DNA of 45,415 bases, taken from contig CAIYJE010000051.1 in NCBI GenBank assembly GCA_903926465.1, positions 1-45,415 of the forward strand, written 5' to 3'. Each line of letters opens with the position of its first letter. Position 1 is the stretch's first letter. Below, piece by piece: positions 22,847 through 38,238 of this stretch. Source of the DNA: an uncultured Planctomycetales bacterium. Lineage in GTDB: Bacteria; Planctomycetota; Planctomycetia; Isosphaerales; Isosphaeraceae. Made by a program: the position numbers and the translations under genes. The notes under the pieces are model-generated. The model was given only the letters and a program-made list of their open reading frames with translations. It was not told the DNA's origin and did no database searches.

Positions 22847-23974
22847 ATGACTTCTCGCCTGCTCTCCACCGCCTGCGGCTTGCTGGGGCTCACCCTGGCG
22901 CTGGCACCGGCTTCATCCACCCAGGCGGCCGACGGTACCTGGCCGACCGAAAAGGCCAACGCCTGGTACGCCTCCAAACCCTGGCTGGTTGGTTGCAACT
23001 TCAGCCCCAGCACAGCCATTAACCAGCTTGAGATGTGGCAGGCCGAGACCTTTGACCCCGCTACCATCGATCGCGAACTTGGCTGGGCCCAGGACCTGGG
23101 CTTCAACAGCGTGCGTGTGTTCCTGCATGACCTGCTCTGGCAGCAAGATTCCCAGGGGCTGCTCCAGCGCATGGAAGAATTCCTGACGATTGCCGACAAG
23201 CACAAGATTGGCGTCATGTTCGTGCTATTCGACAGCGTGTGGGACCCCAATCCCAAGCTGGGTCTGCAGCGCCCACCACACGCCGGCCTGCACAACTCTG
23301 GCTGGGCCCAAAGCCCAGGCCGCGCCATCTTGCAAGACCCCGCCAAGCAAGACAGCCTCAAGCCGTTCGTCCAGGGAGTACTCAAGCACTTCAAGAACGA
23401 TCAGCGGATCCACGCCTGGGACCTGATGAACGAGCCCGACAACAACAACGCCAACAGCTACGGCCTGCTCGAACCCAAGAACAAAGGCGACCTGGCGTTT
23501 GAGCTGCTGAAAAAAACGTTCACCTGGGCACGCGAGATTAACCCCGACCAGCCCCTGACCGCCGGCATCTGGATTGGTGAGTGGACAGCCGACAAGATCC
23601 ACCCCATCCACAAGTTCCAGCTTGACAATTCGGACATCATCACCTACCACTCGTACGACCCACTCGATAAGCACAAGGCCCGCGTGGCCCCCCTCAAGCT
23701 TTACAATCGGCCTATCCTCTGCACCGAGTTCATGGCCCGGCCCAACGGCAGCCAGTTCGACCCAATCCTCGCCTGGCTCAAGAGCGAGAAGATTGGGGCC
23801 TATTGCTGGGGCTTCGTGGCCGGCAAAACCAACACCATCTACGCCTGGGATACCTGGAAGCAACCGGCCACCAGCGAGCCCAAGGTCTGGTTCCACGACA
23901 TCTTCCGCGCCAACGGTACCCCGTTCGACGCCAAGGAAGTGGGCTACATCAAAAGCGTGACCGGGGCCAAGTGA
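22847..23974 (+). CDS. Secreted GH5-like glycoside hydrolase
   Basis: 375 residues with a signal peptide (LLSTACGLLGLTLALAPASSTQA). TIM-barrel clan A motifs: LGFNSVRVFLHDLLW, the acid/base E196 in HAWDLMNEPDNN, YHSYDP, and nucleophile E294 in RPILCTEFMARP, then AYCWGFVAGKTNTIYAW. The fold and both catalytic Glu residues fit family GH5-like enzymes that cut beta-linked polysaccharide outside the cell; the substrate cannot be read. A 184-bp gap separates it from the lipase gene. Confidence 0.9.
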   Translation: MTSRLLSTACGLLGLTLALAPASSTQAADGTWPTEKANAWYASKPWLVGCNFSPSTAINQLEMWQAETFDPATIDRELGWAQDLGFNSVRVFLHDLLWQQDSQGLLQRMEEFLTIADKHKIGVMFVLFDSVWDPNPKLGLQRPPHAGLHNSGWAQSPGRAILQDPAKQDSLKPFVQGVLKHFKNDQRIHAWDLMNEPDNNNANSYGLLEPKNKGDLAFELLKKTFTWAREINPDQPLTAGIWIGEWTADKIHPIHKFQLDNSDIITYHSYDPLDKHKARVAPLKLYNRPILCTEFMARPNGSQFDPILAWLKSEKIGAYCWGFVAGKTNTIYAWDTWKQPATSEPKVWFHDIFRANGTPFDAKEVGYIKSVTGAK

Positions 23975-24069
23975 TAACCCGGTCAATGGATCTGGAAAGG
24001 GCCGGCATGCGAGTAGTGGCTTCCGCCATCCGACACGCGGCCGGCTCCTTGGTCGGGAGTAATCAATCC

Positions 24070-24492
24070 ATGGCTCTTCCAGCTTCGTGCGAAGCCCGAC
24101 CCTTCTATCGATCCGCCATCCACAGGTACGAAGATGCTCTGATCTTGCTACAGGCCGCCCCAGAGCATTCAACAGGGGCTGTCTACCTGGCAGGCTATGG
24201 AATTGAATGTATTCTCAAAGCACTGATCCTGAATACGCTTGCTCAGGCAGACCGTACCGAAATGTTACGATCGTTTCGCGGTGCCAGGGCTCATGATTAC
24301 AGTTGGCTACGATATGAGTATCTCCGAAACGGCGGGCCCAGTTTCCCGGCAAACATCAGACAAGCCTTCACACTGGTTAATGATTGGTCCACGGATTTGA
24401 GGTCTGATCCAAGACAGCAAGAACAAGAAGACGCAAAGGATTTTCTCGACGCGGCCAGAACAATTCTGACCTGGGCAAAAGAGAGGATGTGA
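24070..24492 (+). CDS. HEPN-domain protein, possible RNase toxin
   Basis: 140 residues from ATG 24070 (GGGAG about 9 nt upstream); ATGs at 23986 and 24007 are alternatives. The fold is all-helical with the PF05168-like pattern VYLAGYGIECILKALIL and then FRGARAHDYSWL. R70-GARA-H75 is an R-x4-H motif, the catalytic signature of HEPN ribonucleases. Base composition looks lower in GC than neighbours. Only 1 nt separates its TGA from the ATG of the next gene, so the pair is an operon. HEPN proteins usually pair with MNT nucleotidyltransferases, but the partner here is not one. A toxin or defence role is inferred. Confidence 0.8.
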   Translation: MALPASCEARPFYRSAIHRYEDALILLQAAPEHSTGAVYLAGYGIECILKALILNTLAQADRTEMLRSFRGARAHDYSWLRYEYLRNGGPSFPANIRQAFTLVNDWSTDLRSDPRQQEQEDAKDFLDAARTILTWAKERM

Positions 24493-24493
24493 C

Positions 24494-24817
24494 ATGTCCA
24501 TCAAGGTAACACATGGCTGCAAAGACGAGACGATTGTCCTCTTGATCGAGGCTTTGAAAGCCTATCAAGCTAAACACTCCCAGGCTCAGATCGACCTATA
24601 TCGACAGAATTCTGTTTCGGTACGAATCCGAATCATCGATCCTGACCTAACTGGCCGAAGTAGGGCTGAACGCAACAAGGACGCCTGGAACTATTTAAAC
24701 TCTTTACCGGAAGAGATTCAGTCGGATGTTAGTTCTTTGATCTTGCTCACACCTGAAGAAACCAAGATGTCGTTCGCCAATTTCGAGTTCGAACACCCAA
24801 TTCCGTCAAACCTATGA
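24494..24817 (+). CDS. Small partner of the HEPN protein (107 aa), unknown family
   Basis: 107 residues, starting MSIKVTHGCKDETIVLLIEAL. No nucleotidyltransferase GS-x10-DxD motif, helix-turn-helix or membrane segment is visible. The middle, RIRIIDPDLTGRSRAERNKD followed by AWNYLNSLPEEI and LILLTPEE, has a pattern loosely like BolA-fold proteins (strand, F/L-x-G-R-S-x-x-E-R, helix, strand, LTPEE). This is only a by-eye resemblance. It ends FEFEHPIPSNL. Tight coupling with the HEPN gene suggests antitoxin or regulator, or a second subunit. Confidence 0.75.
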   Translation: MSIKVTHGCKDETIVLLIEALKAYQAKHSQAQIDLYRQNSVSVRIRIIDPDLTGRSRAERNKDAWNYLNSLPEEIQSDVSSLILLTPEETKMSFANFEFEHPIPSNL

Positions 24818-24827
24818 CCGCCTACCG

Positions 24828-25429
24828 ATGAGCTTTCCCTCCAGGATACGATCTTTATTCGACCAGCGGGCCCAACATCAAGAGGCCCAACGCAGAGCAC
24901 GGGCGAACATCCTGAATCTGATCGCAAGCCTGCCCTCTCGGAAACTCACCGGCCGCTGAACCGGCTCGGCCCGCAGAACGACGGTGGCGACGTGGTTCCT
25001 GACGACATTGAGGGGATCGCGGCCTGCTTCTCACCCGGCGTGGGCCAGATCTCAGGCTTTGAAGCCGATTGCGTCTCACGCGGCATGAAGGGCTTTCTGG
25101 CCGATGGCTCGGTGAAGGGACCCGCGCAATCCGACGCCGGCCTCCAGTTTCTCAAGAAACATGTCGGCCTGATCACCAACGGCACCACCATGGATGACTG
25201 GATGAACGCCAGCCACACGCGCCAGAACAGCGACCTGATGCTTCAGATGGATATCGAGGGATGCGAATGGCTCGCCTTGGCCAACATGTCTGGCCCGCTA
25301 CTCCAGCGTTGTCGAATTCTCCAGGAACGGTTTCCAACGTTGCTAACTCGCTCCAAGCCACCGCCGCAGGTCAGGACTCTACCTGAGCCTTTTCCCCGAA
25401 CCTTCAATCGCTTCAATCCAGTTGAATGA
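24828..25429 (+). pseudogene. Decayed FkbM-like methyltransferase gene
   Basis: ATG 24828 opens MSFPSRIRSLFDQRAQHQEA... ending ...PSRKLTGR and a TGA at 24957. The adjacent frame continues as LNRLGPQNDGGDVVPDDIEG, CFSPGVGQISGFEADCVSRG, FLADGSVKGP and DLMLQMDIEGCEWLAL. These match the order of motifs in FkbM-type methyltransferases (nDGGYvvP, SpGVG...E, DIEGaE). One missing base near 24955 explains the break. A second break near 25307 shifts the expected VVEF into another frame (VVEFSRNGF), and the C-terminus is lost. The start lies only 8 nt after the HEPN partner gene. Confidence 0.72.
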
Positions 25430-33241: not shown

Positions 33242-33304
33242 GATAGCCGCCCCCGGCTCTCTGTTTCTTCAGTCCATTGTGCGACAGCCGCCCCCGGCTG
33301 TCGC
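33242..33304. repeat. Pair of GACAGCCG-type hairpin repeats
   Basis: A perfect 10-bp stem GCGACAGCCG / CGGCTGTCGC (33281-33304, loop CCCC) is preceded by an imperfect copy GATAGCCG..GGCTCTC (33242-33260). It lies between the DUF1501 stop and the metallophosphatase gene. The same paired design (one perfect, one GATAGCC copy) occurs at 38373-38439. It may also end transcription. Confidence 0.7.
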
Positions 33305-33327
33305 TTCAGTCATGGAATCGAACCGCT

Positions 33328-34971
33328 ATGGCCAATGAGCGACCACACACTGGAATTGAACCTCGGAATCGCTGGTGGATCGTAGCCTGTTTGGGTGTCC
33401 TGGCCTGGCTCGCCCCACCGCCGTGCCAGGCCGAGTCAATTCGCGTGACCTTGCTCCAGATCAACGACGTTTATGAACTTCAGGCCCGGCCGGGCACGCC
33501 GGGCGGTCTGGCGCGTGTGGCTGGCCTGCGTGCCAAGCTGGAACAAGAGAATCCCGGCCACACCTTCACCATTCTGGCCGGCGATGCGCTCAGTCCGTCG
33601 GCCCTGGGAATGCTGAACGTGGATGGTGAAAAGCTGGCCGGGCGTCAGATGGTGGCATCGCTGCGGGCCTTGGGGGTCGATTTCGCCACCTTTGGAAACC
33701 ATGAATTTGACATCACCGGTGATCAGTTCCTGGCCCGCCTGAGAGAGTCTGGATCGCGTGAAGAGACCAGCGGTACGGCCGAAATGCGCCGGATGTACTG
33801 GTTCTCTGACAATGTGACCGATCAGGCGGGCAATCCCTTTCCAGGCGTGACCCGGGAACTGGTGCTGCAGGTGCTGGGCGAATCTGGGGCCACGCTGCGG
33901 ATTGGCGTGATTGGTGTGACAACCTCCCAGAACGACCCCGATTATGCCGACTTCAAGAACCCCGTTGAAACGGCCCGCGCCCTGGCGCGCAAGTGGCATG
34001 AGAATAAAACCTGTGACGTGATCATTGCGGTGACCCACCTGACCATTGAAGAAGACGAACGGCTGGCCCTGGCGGCCCCCGAGATCAGCCTGATCCTGGG
34101 CGGCCATGAGCACGAACATAGCTACACCCACCGGCCAGGCCTGGCCCACCCGCCCATTGCCAAGGCCGACGCCAACGTGCGCACCGTTTATGTGCATGAC
34201 CTGCTGTATGACACCCAGAGCCACCAGTTGGCCCTGTCTTCTCGGCTGGAACCGGTTCTGCCCACGCTGGCCGAAGAGCCGGCCACCGCCCGGGTGGTGA
34301 ACGACTGGATGCAGCGCGGCCTGGCGGCGTTTGAAGCCCAGTACAAGTACAAGGCGGCAGATCCGGTCTTCGTCAGCCCTCATGACCTGGAAGGGCGAGA
34401 CGGCTTGGTTCGCTCCACCCCCACCAACCTCACCAAACTGGTATGCGCCTCCATGCTTGAGGCGGCCGGGCCCAGCACCGACGCCGTGGTTCTGAACAGC
34501 GGCACGATCCGGATTGATGATGTGATTCCCGCCGGGCCAGTCACCTACTATGACCTCCACCAGATTCTGCCCTACGACGGTGACATCATGACCGGTCAGG
34601 TGCGTGGCGACCTGCTCAAGAAGATCCTGGACCGGGGCGCGGCCATCCCGCAAGATGGCGGGTTCTTGCAAACCGCCAACATTGGCGGCAATACGCGGCA
34701 AGGCTGGACCGTGAAGGGGGCTCCCCTGGACGCTTCCACCTACTACAACATTGCCACCACCGCCCACTTCACCGGCGGCGTGCTCAAGAAGTTCACCGAT
34801 CTGGAACTTGATAAAACGAGCCTGATCCGCGAGCGCAAGACCCTGATGGACCAGCGCGTGGCGCTGATCCAGTACCTCAAAACCAACCCCAAGGTCGAGC
34901 CACCGGCCTCGCATCCGAACTTCGTGAAAGAGCCGATCCCGCACGAGCCGATCATTCTCACGCTGCCTTGA
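33328..34971 (+). CDS. 5'-nucleotidase / metallophosphatase family secreted protein
   Basis: 547 residues from ATG 33328, with a hydrophobic export signal (WWIVACLGVLAWLAPPPCQA). Calcineurin-like metal-binding motifs in order: LLQINDVYEL (D; the usual DxH reads DVY), ILAGDALSPS (GD), TFGNHEFDI (GNHE), IIAVTHLTIEED (H) and GGHEHEH (GHxH). The C-terminal 5'-nucleotidase domain is recognisable in TNLTKLVCASMLEAA, VVLNSGTIRIDDVIPAGPVTYYDL and ILPYDGDIM. It would hydrolyse nucleotides or related phosphoesters in the periplasm. The in-frame ATG/TTG upstream falls inside repeat DNA, so it is not used. Confidence 0.9.
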   Translation: MANERPHTGIEPRNRWWIVACLGVLAWLAPPPCQAESIRVTLLQINDVYELQARPGTPGGLARVAGLRAKLEQENPGHTFTILAGDALSPSALGMLNVDGEKLAGRQMVASLRALGVDFATFGNHEFDITGDQFLARLRESGSREETSGTAEMRRMYWFSDNVTDQAGNPFPGVTRELVLQVLGESGATLRIGVIGVTTSQNDPDYADFKNPVETARALARKWHENKTCDVIIAVTHLTIEEDERLALAAPEISLILGGHEHEHSYTHRPGLAHPPIAKADANVRTVYVHDLLYDTQSHQLALSSRLEPVLPTLAEEPATARVVNDWMQRGLAAFEAQYKYKAADPVFVSPHDLEGRDGLVRSTPTNLTKLVCASMLEAAGPSTDAVVLNSGTIRIDDVIPAGPVTYYDLHQILPYDGDIMTGQVRGDLLKKILDRGAAIPQDGGFLQTANIGGNTRQGWTVKGAPLDASTYYNIATTAHFTGGVLKKFTDLELDKTSLIRERKTLMDQRVALIQYLKTNPKVEPPASHPNFVKEPIPHEPIILTLP

Positions 34972-35004: not shown

Positions 35005-36114
35005 ATGGCCATGGCCTTGAAGAAACTTTCCATTCACGGCTTCAAGTCGATTGAAAAACTCCAAGATTTCGCGATTGAGAATTTGACCGTACTGATTGGC
35101 GCCAATGGCGCGGGAAAGAGTAACTTCGTAGATTTTTTTCGGATGCTTCGGGCACTGGCTGATGAAGCATTCCAGAGCTTTGTGAACGCCCAGGGGGGCG
35201 GCGACGGCCTGCTTTTCCTTGGTCCCAAGCGAACGCCCCAGATCTCGGCACACCTTGAGTTTGGACAGAATTCCTATAGCTTTGTTCTGGAACCCACGGC
35301 CGGCGGCACACTTCAGGTCAAAGAAGAACGCGTTTCTTACATACCCAGCGGTAGCGGTTCCTCCCTTTCACGTGGGGCGATGGAATCTGCACTTAAAGGC
35401 AATCGAAGCGTCCAAAGTCCGCATTGGGACGTCCCAGGTGTTCCCCATTACGTGTATGCAGCGGTCTCAAACTGGACGGTTTACCATTTTCATGATACGA
35501 GTTCCCTCGCCCTTATGCGGCGTGATCAAGCGGTGCGTGACTGGGCGCGTTTCCGGCACGACGCGTCCAATATCGCGTCATTTTTATTAAATCTTCAGAA
35601 TGAGCAGGCAGAAAGCTACACCCTGATTCGTGATACCGTGCGACTGATTGCGCCGTACTTTGATGACTTTCAGTTGCGGCCCCAAACACGTGGCGGCGAT
35701 GAGCAGGTACGGCTTGAGTGGCTACAGAAGGGGAGCGATTTCCCATTCCAGCCCAACCAGCTCTCCGATGGAACGATCCGCTTCATTTGCCTGGCAACCG
35801 CACTGTTACAACCAAACCCGCCGGCGACCATTGTGATTGACGAGCCAGAACTGGGCCTCCATCCGTTTGCGCTCGCCTTGCTGGCAGGCCTCATCAAATC
35901 GGCTTCTGAGCGCACCCAGGTCATCCTCTCTACCCAATCTCCCAATCTGCTCGATTTTTTTGAAGCTAATCAGATTGTGGTGGTAAACCGTCATAATGGG
36001 GCCTCTCTTTTTGAACGTCTCGACCCTGAAGCACTGAAGGAATGGATGGAAGAATACTCGGTGGGCGAACTCTGGCAAAAGAACGTGGTGCAGGGGGGGC
36101 CCACCCGTGAATAA
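35005..36114 (+). CDS. AAA/ABC-type ATPase (RecF/OLD-like, AAA_21) of a two-gene defence-like unit
   Basis: 369 residues. It opens LKKLSIHGFKSIEKLQDFAI, typical of RecF/SMC-like ATPases. Walker A GANGAGKSN (32-40), signature-like LSDGT (253-257), Walker B with IVIDEPELGLHP (276-287), and STQSPNLLDFF (switch His replaced by Gln). The region looks clearly lower in GC than the flanking genes. Its TAA lies inside the start of the next gene (8-nt overlap, GTGAATAA), which encodes a DUF4276/TOPRIM-like protein. Such ATPase + TOPRIM-like pairs are known in phage defence (OLD/Gabija/PARIS/AbiL-type logic). A named system cannot be fixed by eye. Confidence 0.88.
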   Translation: MAMALKKLSIHGFKSIEKLQDFAIENLTVLIGANGAGKSNFVDFFRMLRALADEAFQSFVNAQGGGDGLLFLGPKRTPQISAHLEFGQNSYSFVLEPTAGGTLQVKEERVSYIPSGSGSSLSRGAMESALKGNRSVQSPHWDVPGVPHYVYAAVSNWTVYHFHDTSSLALMRRDQAVRDWARFRHDASNIASFLLNLQNEQAESYTLIRDTVRLIAPYFDDFQLRPQTRGGDEQVRLEWLQKGSDFPFQPNQLSDGTIRFICLATALLQPNPPATIVIDEPELGLHPFALALLAGLIKSASERTQVILSTQSPNLLDFFEANQIVVVNRHNGASLFERLDPEALKEWMEEYSVGELWQKNVVQGGPTRE

Positions 36115-36789
36115 GCTGACCGTGATCGTTGAGGGACTAACCGAGCAAGCCTTCGTGCGTGATCAGCTTGATGCGCACCTTGCACGTTTCAACATCAAGG
36201 CATTCCCAATACTTCCGGGCACAAACACGGCAATCGAGGTGGAATCAGAAACTGGAACCAGGCCCGCCAGGATATTATCAAGGTCTTGAAACAAGGCGGC
36301 TATTGCTCGACCATGTTCGACTATTATGGCATGCCTGAAGACTGGCCTGGACGAGCCCAGGCGAGTTCCAGGCCTTGGGAGCAACGGGCCGCATTTGTTG
36401 AGCAGATGGTCAGCGCCGAGATTCAGAAGCAGCTGGATGACCGGTTCAATCCGCAGTTGTTCATCCCCTATGTGCAGCTTCATGAGTTTGAAGCGCTGGC
36501 GTTTGCCAAGGTTGAAACGTTGGTGGAAGTGGTGTCACCGCTTCATAAGGGCCGGGCAGACCATCTGCTTGAGAGTTTCCAAAAAATCCTCAAGCAAGCG
36601 GGGGCACCTGAAGCGATCAATGATAGCTATGAAACTTGCCCCTCACGGCGGATCCTGAAACTGGTTCCCGCGTACACGAAAACCGCACAGGGACCAATTG
36701 TGACGGGTCGAATTGGGATCGAGACCCTGCGCCAGCGGTGCCCACATTTTGCAAGCTGGCTGAGCCGGCTCGAACAACTTAACACCTGA
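36107..36789 (+). pseudogene. DUF4276 / TOPRIM-like gene split by a frameshift
   Basis: GTG 36107 opens MNKLTVIVEGLTEQAFVRDQ, with the VEGxTE acidic motif, and continues to FPILPGTN. It then runs into a stop at 36289. The adjacent frame reads GNRGGIRNWNQARQDIIKVL and KQGGYCSTMFDYYGMPEDWPG, then FIPYVQLHEFEALAF, PEAINDSYETCPSRRIL, ...IGIETLRQRCPHFASWLSRL: the rest of DUF4276. One extra base, or two missing, near 36225-36235 explains the break; rejoined length would be about 227 residues, normal for the family. No canonical slippery heptamer was found, so mutation or a sequence error is more likely than programmed shift. Confidence 0.82.
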
Positions 36790-36822: not shown

Positions 36823-38238
36823 CTACACCAGAATCTCTTGCACCACGCGGCCAGAGACGTCGGTCAGGCGGTAGTCTCGCCCAGAGTGGCGATACGTGAG
36901 CCGGGTATGGTCCAGGCCCATCAGGTGCAAGATGGTGGCATGAAAGTCATGCACATGCACCGGGTTTCGACCCACGCGAATGCCGTGCTCGTCAGACTCT
37001 CCATAGGTAATCCCCGGCTTCACCCCCGCGCCGGCCAGCCACGACGAAAACACCCAGTGGTGATGCTCACGCCCCTGGGCATTGGCCGCCGCATTGAACG
37101 GGGTCCGGCCAAACTCGGTCGTCCACACCACCAGGGTGTCGTCCAGCATGCCACGCTGCTTCAAATCTTTGAGTAGGCCGGCCGTCGCCTGGTCCACGTT
37201 TCTGGCCAGCGGCTGGTGCGTCATCATGTCGCCATGCGCATCCCAGTTATTCGAGGAACCCACGTCGATCAGCTCGATGAACCGAACCCCACGCTCGGCC
37301 AGACGCCGGGCCACCAGGCATTGCCAGGCAAACCCCTTGGTACTGCCCCGTTCCAGCCCGTAAAGCTTCAAGGTGGCGTCTGTCTCGTGCGCCAGGTCAA
37401 ACACCTCGGGCATCTCTGCCTGCATCCCGTACGCCGTTTCAAACGACCGGATGCGCGCGGCCAGTAACGGGTCGGTGGCATGCGCATGCAGATGCCGCGT
37501 GTTCATCCGGTCCATCAGACCCAGTTCCAGCTCTTGCAGCTTGGAACTGGCCGCCCGGCGCTGGATGTTGGCCACCGGGTCAGCACCCGGTACTACCAGG
37601 GTCCCCTGGTGCGAACCAGGCAAGAAGTCACTGCCCCACACCTGGCCGCCCGCGTACGGAGACTGGGGCGCAATGACCACGAACGACGGCAAGTTCCGGT
37701 TCTCGGTCCCCAGCCCATAACTGACCCAAGACCCAATGCTGGGCCTCACAAACGTGAACGAGCCGGTGTGAATGCCCAGGGTCGCCTCATAATGGTTCGT
37801 ATGGTCCGACTCCATCGAGCGAATCACGCACAAATCGTCGACATATCCGGCCATGTGTGGAAACAGGCCACTGACCTCGGTACCAGACTGGCCATGCGGC
37901 TTGAACTCCCACTGGGGCCGCTTCAGGTACATCTCATAGCTGCCCTTGCGCCCCTGAAACTCATTCACGGCCACCGTTTTGCCGGCATCGCTGAATAAAC
38001 GGGGCCGGTGGTCCCAGGAATCAACGTGCGAAACCCCGCCGCTCATGTACAGGAAGATGACGCTTTTGGCCTTGCCCGGGAAATGGCCAGGCCGGGGGGC
38101 TAGAGGATCGGCCTGAACTGGGCGCGGAGAATCTTCGGCCAGCAGTTCCGAGACCAGGCCCGGCAACAGCATCGAACCGCCCATCAAAGACCGGAGCACG
38201 CCACGGCGTGAAGGATCCACAGGTCGAAGAATGCTCAT
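36823..38238 (-). CDS. DUF1501 family Tat-exported protein (second copy)
   Basis: 471 residues. The start MSILRPVDPSRRGVLRSLMG has the twin Arg of a Tat signal followed by a hydrophobic stretch. DUF1501 markers: VIFLYMSGGVSHVDSWDHRP, LFPHMAGYVDDLCVIRSME, GSWVSYGLGTENRNLPSFVV, FAWQCLVARRLAERGVRFIEL, NNWDAHGDM, LVVWTTEFGRTPFN, REHHHWVFSSWLAGAGVKPG, ILHLMGLDHTRLTYRHSGRDYRLT. It is the partner of the large PSD1 gene upstream (270-bp gap). Its stop faces the DUF4276 gene 33 bp away. Confidence 0.95.
   Translation of the reverse strand: MSILRPVDPSRRGVLRSLMGGSMLLPGLVSELLAEDSPRPVQADPLAPRPGHFPGKAKSVIFLYMSGGVSHVDSWDHRPRLFSDAGKTVAVNEFQGRKGSYEMYLKRPQWEFKPHGQSGTEVSGLFPHMAGYVDDLCVIRSMESDHTNHYEATLGIHTGSFTFVRPSIGSWVSYGLGTENRNLPSFVVIAPQSPYAGGQVWGSDFLPGSHQGTLVVPGADPVANIQRRAASSKLQELELGLMDRMNTRHLHAHATDPLLAARIRSFETAYGMQAEMPEVFDLAHETDATLKLYGLERGSTKGFAWQCLVARRLAERGVRFIELIDVGSSNNWDAHGDMMTHQPLARNVDQATAGLLKDLKQRGMLDDTLVVWTTEFGRTPFNAAANAQGREHHHWVFSSWLAGAGVKPGITYGESDEHGIRVGRNPVHVHDFHATILHLMGLDHTRLTYRHSGRDYRLTDVSGRVVQEILV

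Follow-up and report, generated by a model that had tools for sequence, protein, structure and literature searches.

A broken copy of the candidate defence pair HEC-01 in a planctomycete genome, and a predicted OLD-type TOPRIM fold for its effector family

The window, by which we mean the whole stretch of 45,415 nucleotides analysed here (contig CAIYJE010000051.1), belongs to a draft genome (6.89 Mb in 207 contigs) of an uncultured Planctomycetales bacterium, and its gene content, as judged by Pfam matches, includes PSCyt1/PSCyt2/PSD1 and DUF1501 genes. A two-gene unit on the forward strand lies between a 5'-nucleotidase-like gene (33277..34971, + strand; Pfam 5_nucleotid_C and Metallophos), whose end is 33 nt upstream of the pair, and, in convergent orientation, a DUF1501 gene of a planctomycete PSCyt/DUF1501 operon (36823..38238, - strand; Pfam DUF1501, E=1.5e-134). 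Both flanking genes stand outside the system, and the neighbours of the pair in the window are ordinary planctomycete genes, none of defence type. The first gene of the pair, HEC-01A (35005..36114, + strand), is an intact open reading frame of 369 aa for an ABC-type (AAA_21) ATPase, a putative sensor or regulator with the Walker A motif GANGAGKSN, the Walker B motif IDEPELGLHP and 38-52% identity to DUF4276-adjacent homologues. The second, HEC-01B (DUF4276), starts at a GTG at 36107 and overlaps the end of the ATPase gene by 8 nt.

This second gene is split between two frames. The start frame is family-like to about 36228 (N-terminal piece, 36107..36228, + strand, carrying the TOPRIM motif-1 VEGLTE with E9 and E13) and then runs on to a TGA at 36287-36289; it encodes MNKLTVIVEGLTEQAFVRDQLDAHLARFNIKAFPILPGTN, beyond which family likeness ends. 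Family sequence resumes with GNRGGIRNW... in the other frame, from about 36229 to 36786 (C-terminal piece, 36229..36789, + strand, carrying FDYYG with D73, HEFE with E128 and E130, and K197), and the corresponding ORF is listed from a TTG at 36286, so that the stop of the first frame overlaps the TTG of the second in TTGA at 36286-36289. Comparison with the frames of intact homologues places the exchange at 36210..36229 (+ strand), as a net shift of -1 (equivalently +2) that falls in a variable loop ahead of the conserved RGG of DUF4276. The pair has a GC content of 53.8%, and the 5-kb flanks on either side have 64.0% and 62.9%. An earlier note on this DNA, made from the letters alone, had described the intact Walker motifs, the 8-nt overlap, a DUF4276 gene split near 36230 and a lower GC content, all of which we find as it described them.

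The PADLOC search that the earlier note proposed returned HEC-01 for both genes. The ATPase matches HEC-01A (PDLC04175, E=1.6e-137, residues 3-366) as well as Pfam AAA_21 (E=1.4e-38), and both effector pieces match HEC-01B (PDLC04188; 1.6e-7 for the N-terminal and 1.7e-50 for the C-terminal piece) and Pfam DUF4276 (E = 0.0068 and 1.2e-32), the first of these Pfam matches being under the family's own cut-off. By these profile matches the pair is HEC-01 (HEC-01A plus HEC-01B), a PADLOC candidate defence system that is already catalogued and hence not new. On the same evidence the window locus is a broken copy of HEC-01 and not a working member as assembled, because its effector is not contained in one open frame, although both genes and their order match HEC-01. 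HEC stands for Hma-embedded candidate, and several HECs have been tested, with HEC-04 and HEC-06 named (PMC12111858; PMC12988326). In the open literature searched, HEC-01 receives one passing mention, in Desulfovibrio piger; we found there no HEC-01 activity or phage assay and no paper that mentions DUF4276, the original guilt-by-embedding preprint, a possible place of testing, lying outside the search.

The arrangement of the pair is not a matter of chance, because dozens of genomes preserve the gene order, the short overlap and the two protein families. The pair is the sole DUF4276 locus in its genome, Pfam DUF4276 is present in 26 of 59 relatives, and 25 of 392 genomes of the phylum have close HEC-01A matches. 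Homologues of HEC-01A extend to Chlorobiaceae, Nitrosomonas, Verrucomicrobia, Bacteroidota, Cyanobacteria, Myxococcota and others beside Planctomycetota, and they are found on plasmids of Aeromonas, Nostoc, Acinetobacter, Piscirickettsia and others; a search of phage records for the ATPase found nothing at E 1e-20. For the flanking DUF1501/PSCyt operon, the nearest orthologue (in genome G022; 82% identity for DUF1501, to locus L041, and 59%) is without the pair, an exact empty site being not definable there, with only the DUF1501 side syntenic. Across 45 genomes of the family, DNA similarity to the window is confined to the DUF1501 gene and a short stretch of the ATPase gene. The GC contrast, the flanking-operon orthologue without the pair and the homologues on plasmids and in many phyla all count for horizontal acquisition. 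A second lower-GC patch of the window, at 23803-24817 (52.6% for 24001-25000), holds a small helical-looking ORF ending at 24492, HEPN-like by eye, and a 107-aa ORF at 24494-24817; neither has a Pfam match, and the patch could be toxin-antitoxin-like or a mobile cassette.

What company does HEC-01 keep elsewhere? On the Aeromonas plasmid pE31A the pair, again overlapping by 8 nt, is flanked by type III Mod and Res genes; annotation shows this arrangement on another Aeromonas plasmid too, and in one further genome (G055) a type III methylase and a helicase of DrmD/SNF2 type stand next to the pair. At about 50 GTDB loci, only a few of the 95 nearest-neighbour ORFs, a mechanically called set with some spurious members, match defence profiles; most HEC-01 copies, that of the window included, are therefore solitary. 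The earlier note held that homologues which are housekeeping genes outside defence islands would speak against a defence pair, and on this point the picture is mixed: most HEC-01 neighbours are housekeeping genes, which counts against defence, and type III restriction or DISARM-like genes make up a minority, which counts for it. Other arrangements came to light in passing. Genome G023 has two HEC-01 loci, and some 9 kb from one of them lies a protein matching HEC-02B (L050:18670-19224, E 3.8e-27); a small mobilizable 10.9-kb plasmid of Acinetobacter sp. TR11 (L282) carries a HEC-01 pair (AAA ATPase plus DUF4276) beside VapBC and tet(39); and genomes of the same family contain many more divergent ATPase plus DUF4276 pairs (L014-L026 and similar), a single genome giving as many as 6 DUF4276 matches. 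Against the HEC-01B alignment these pairs have poor scores, and they possibly represent several distinct subtypes.

DUF4276 has no match in the PDB by sequence. An AlphaFold model of an intact HEC-01B relative (L054), built on a 44-sequence alignment, reached pLDDT 95.1 and pTM 0.91, and its top PDB matches are the C-terminal TOPRIM regions of the Xcc and Bp OLD proteins (Foldseek E 9.9e-4; Z 9.2-10.1), with 180-186 residues aligned at an rmsd of 4.2-5.0 Å over the TOPRIM plus helical region. A PARIS complex chain (8ux9_A, Z 8.9), the OLD protein of retron Eco8 (Z 7.6) and GajA (Z 6.9) follow, and unrelated folds begin at Z 6.4. The model's fold match thus backs an OLD-type TOPRIM fold for DUF4276/HEC-01B, and with it the TOPRIM guess made for this family in the earlier note. 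E9, E13, D73, E128, E130 and K197 are invariant among the 43-44 homologues aligned, with E9/G10/E13 present in 43 of 43. The Bp OLD site consists of E400, E404, D455, D457, T506/E508 and K562 (PMC6755086); the E/E/D/E/K order and approximate spacing of HEC-01B agree with E400, E404, D455, E508 and K562, a correspondence drawn from motif order and fold match, with no superposition of side chains. Where the second Asp of DxD would stand (position 75; D457 in Bp OLD), HEC-01B has Tyr or Phe in 44 of 44 sequences, and given this replacement its catalysis may differ or be lost. The window copy keeps every conserved residue and has no second lesion, with E9/E13 before the break and D73, E128/E130 and K197 after it.

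The comparison with homologous loci proposed in the earlier note showed conserved gene order and short overlap, and an excess of lesions in the effector over the ATPase. We surveyed HEC-01 by six-frame profiles on four samples: family relatives (via DUF4276), GTDB species (via the ATPase), and phylum and class genomes (via both, the sampling by both genes covering Planctomycetota only). In the resulting set of 121 loci (duplicates merged), which the ATPase cut-off of at least 290 bits biases towards intact ATPases and in which many assemblies are metagenome bins, both genes are intact in 87, an intact ATPase accompanies a broken, truncated or missing effector in 17, a broken ATPase accompanies an intact effector in 4, and both genes are damaged in 6; the remainder are cut by sequence ends. 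Single lesions therefore fall in the effector in 17 of 21 cases, against 37% predicted from gene lengths (binomial p 4.7e-5, on the assumption of an equal lesion rate per base, in relatives that are not fully independent and with the effector as the distal gene). The excess holds without the ATPase-ascertained GTDB set (10/12, p 0.0014) and when the count is restricted to frame lesions, which sequencing errors can imitate (9/13, p 0.021). At one further locus (L270, G580:C249), HEC-01A is interrupted, apparently by an IS66-like antisense ORF, with HEC-01B intact; counted as a fifth ATPase lesion, it gives 17/22 (p 1.8e-4), or 10/13 without the GTDB set (p 0.0046). The lesions include frameshifts, a nonsense codon and internal and 5' deletions, with large effector deletions in six loci (L080, L098, L228, L233, L254 and L257), at sites that differ among relatives, and one break sits in a complete Sorangium chromosome. 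These counts favour effector loss that is genuine and recurrent across relatives, and the excess is consistent with an effector whose unchecked activity carries a cost.

Why is the effector frame of the window copy broken? The earlier note had left inactivation, phase variation and sequencing error side by side. Inactivation is favoured over sequencing error from the effector-lesion excess in relatives: random errors would not strike the effector more often than the longer ATPase gene, several relatives carry deletions or nonsense changes, with the Sorangium break in a finished sequence, and the site at 36210-36229 is neither a homopolymer nor a repeat. An assembly or sequencing error, with the effector intact in the living organism, would account for a single break between pieces that are otherwise fully conserved, in a draft genome of many contigs and with no same-genus genome among those compared; we regard it as doubtful, yet as a serious contender. 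Programmed frameshifting or phase variation, by which full-length effector would be made only occasionally, strikes us as highly improbable. The overlap of stop and TTG at 36286-36289 would suit it, as would the several relatives whose breaks lie in the loop ahead of RGG or ahead of TTMxDYY, but the shift zone shows, by eye, neither slippery heptamer nor repeat tract, predicted RNA structure at the break is no better than in shuffles (z -0.44), 87 of the 104 homologues with an intact ATPase have one open effector frame, and the broken copies differ in site, in kind (nonsense, deletion, shift) and in sequence. A conserved programmed slip site was likewise rejected, since the breaks of relatives differ in place and kind and the RNA structure is unremarkable.

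We therefore read the unit as a candidate defence pair of the HEC-01 kind that was acquired horizontally and has had its effector inactivated in this genome, a reading to which we give a probability of roughly 0.6. The HEC-01A ABC ATPase would be sensor and keeper, and HEC-01B a stand-alone OLD-type TOPRIM nuclease that HEC-01A restrains. On sensing infection the ATPase would free or switch on HEC-01B, which would then cut phage or host nucleic acid and so stop phage growth, as with AriA/AriB in PARIS. In PARIS the AriA ATPase keeps AriB inactive, phage proteins trigger its release, and AriB is a two-metal tRNA nuclease (PMC12409363). We infer the nuclease activity of HEC-01, its control by the ATPase, the defence role and the reality of the break as a mutation. 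Of the earlier note's proposal, an ATPase plus TOPRIM-like phage-defence pair, the catalogued status as candidate defence and the fold match stand, and the defence role itself is putative. In the window the ATPase is intact and the effector frame as assembled is broken once, between the motif-1 glutamates and the remaining active site; the break parts E9/E13 from the rest of the site, and therefore neither piece can form an active centre. No defence is therefore expected from the window locus unless the break is an error.

Two other readings concern the pair as a whole. HEC-01B might be a TOPRIM-fold regulator or nucleotide-binding protein and no nuclease, the pair having no part in defence. 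The Tyr/Phe in place of the second DxD Asp, the mostly housekeeping neighbours and the lack of a HEC-01 assay in the open literature searched would agree with this, but the other OLD-type metal-site positions and the lysine are all invariant, defence nucleases head the fold matches, and some hosts carry the pair inside a type III restriction or DISARM-like cluster, and we hold such a role to be unlikely. Less probable again is that the ATPase alone has retained a function (repair, regulation or anti-plasmid activity) for which the effector is dispensable: the 17 loci, out of 104, in which its frame is intact and the effector is broken, truncated or absent, large deletions among them, are what this would produce, but recent loss gives the identical pattern and 87 loci retain both genes. 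For the defence reading, a TOPRIM nuclease held by its sensor is the best-supported account of HEC-01, because HEC-01 shares its two parts with PARIS, its modelled fold is related and its active site is nearly equal.

The value of the window locus is comparative, and the comparative findings, an OLD-type TOPRIM whose DxD is altered, and the preferential loss of the effector, are more useful than the broken locus itself. They give DUF4276 a structural identity and named residues to mutate; the effector-lesion excess makes the idea that defence effectors are costly a countable pattern, and predicts toxicity of HEC-01B in the absence of HEC-01A. It is conceivable, and we propose it tentatively, that HEC-01 represents another split OLD system, distinct in sequence and modified at the TOPRIM active site (D-x-Tyr/Phe for DxD), whose effector is recurrently purged and whose ATPase keeper is retained. 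If so, this recurrent purging is as expected for an effector costly or toxic to its host.

Among known systems, MADS MAD3 and other AAA_21 defence ATPases share the AAA_21 domain with the window ATPase at a weaker profile match; it falls far under the MAD3 cut-off (100 vs 420 bits), and no other MADS genes were seen adjoining the pair. With OLD nucleases and Gabija GajA, HEC-01B shares the TOPRIM plus helical fold and the E, E, D, E, K site, but in HEC-01 the ATPase and the TOPRIM are on two proteins, Dx(Y/F) replaces DxD, and the UvrD-like helicase gene of Gabija is absent; membership in OLD classes 1-3 or Gabija was ruled out by the separate genes and by neighbours that are a 5'-nucleotidase and DUF1501 in place of a helicase or RT partner. 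PARIS (AriA plus AriB; class 4 OLD) likewise has separate ABC ATPase and TOPRIM genes, and its complex chain 8ux9_A matches the HEC-01B model at Z 8.9. Against this, the window ATPase scores 456 bits with HEC-01A and 121 bits with AriA, HEC-01B is about 220-235 aa long and the PARIS chain 306 residues, and AriB profiles in PADLOC gave no match to either HEC-01B piece up to E 1. On these analogies and the modelled fold, we infer that HEC-01 is a split OLD/PARIS-like sensor with a predicted nuclease. To HEC-01 (Hma-embedded candidate 01) itself the window genes correspond in both profile sets and in identical order, and they differ from it in that the effector frame is broken and the locus lies outside any Hma or restriction cluster.
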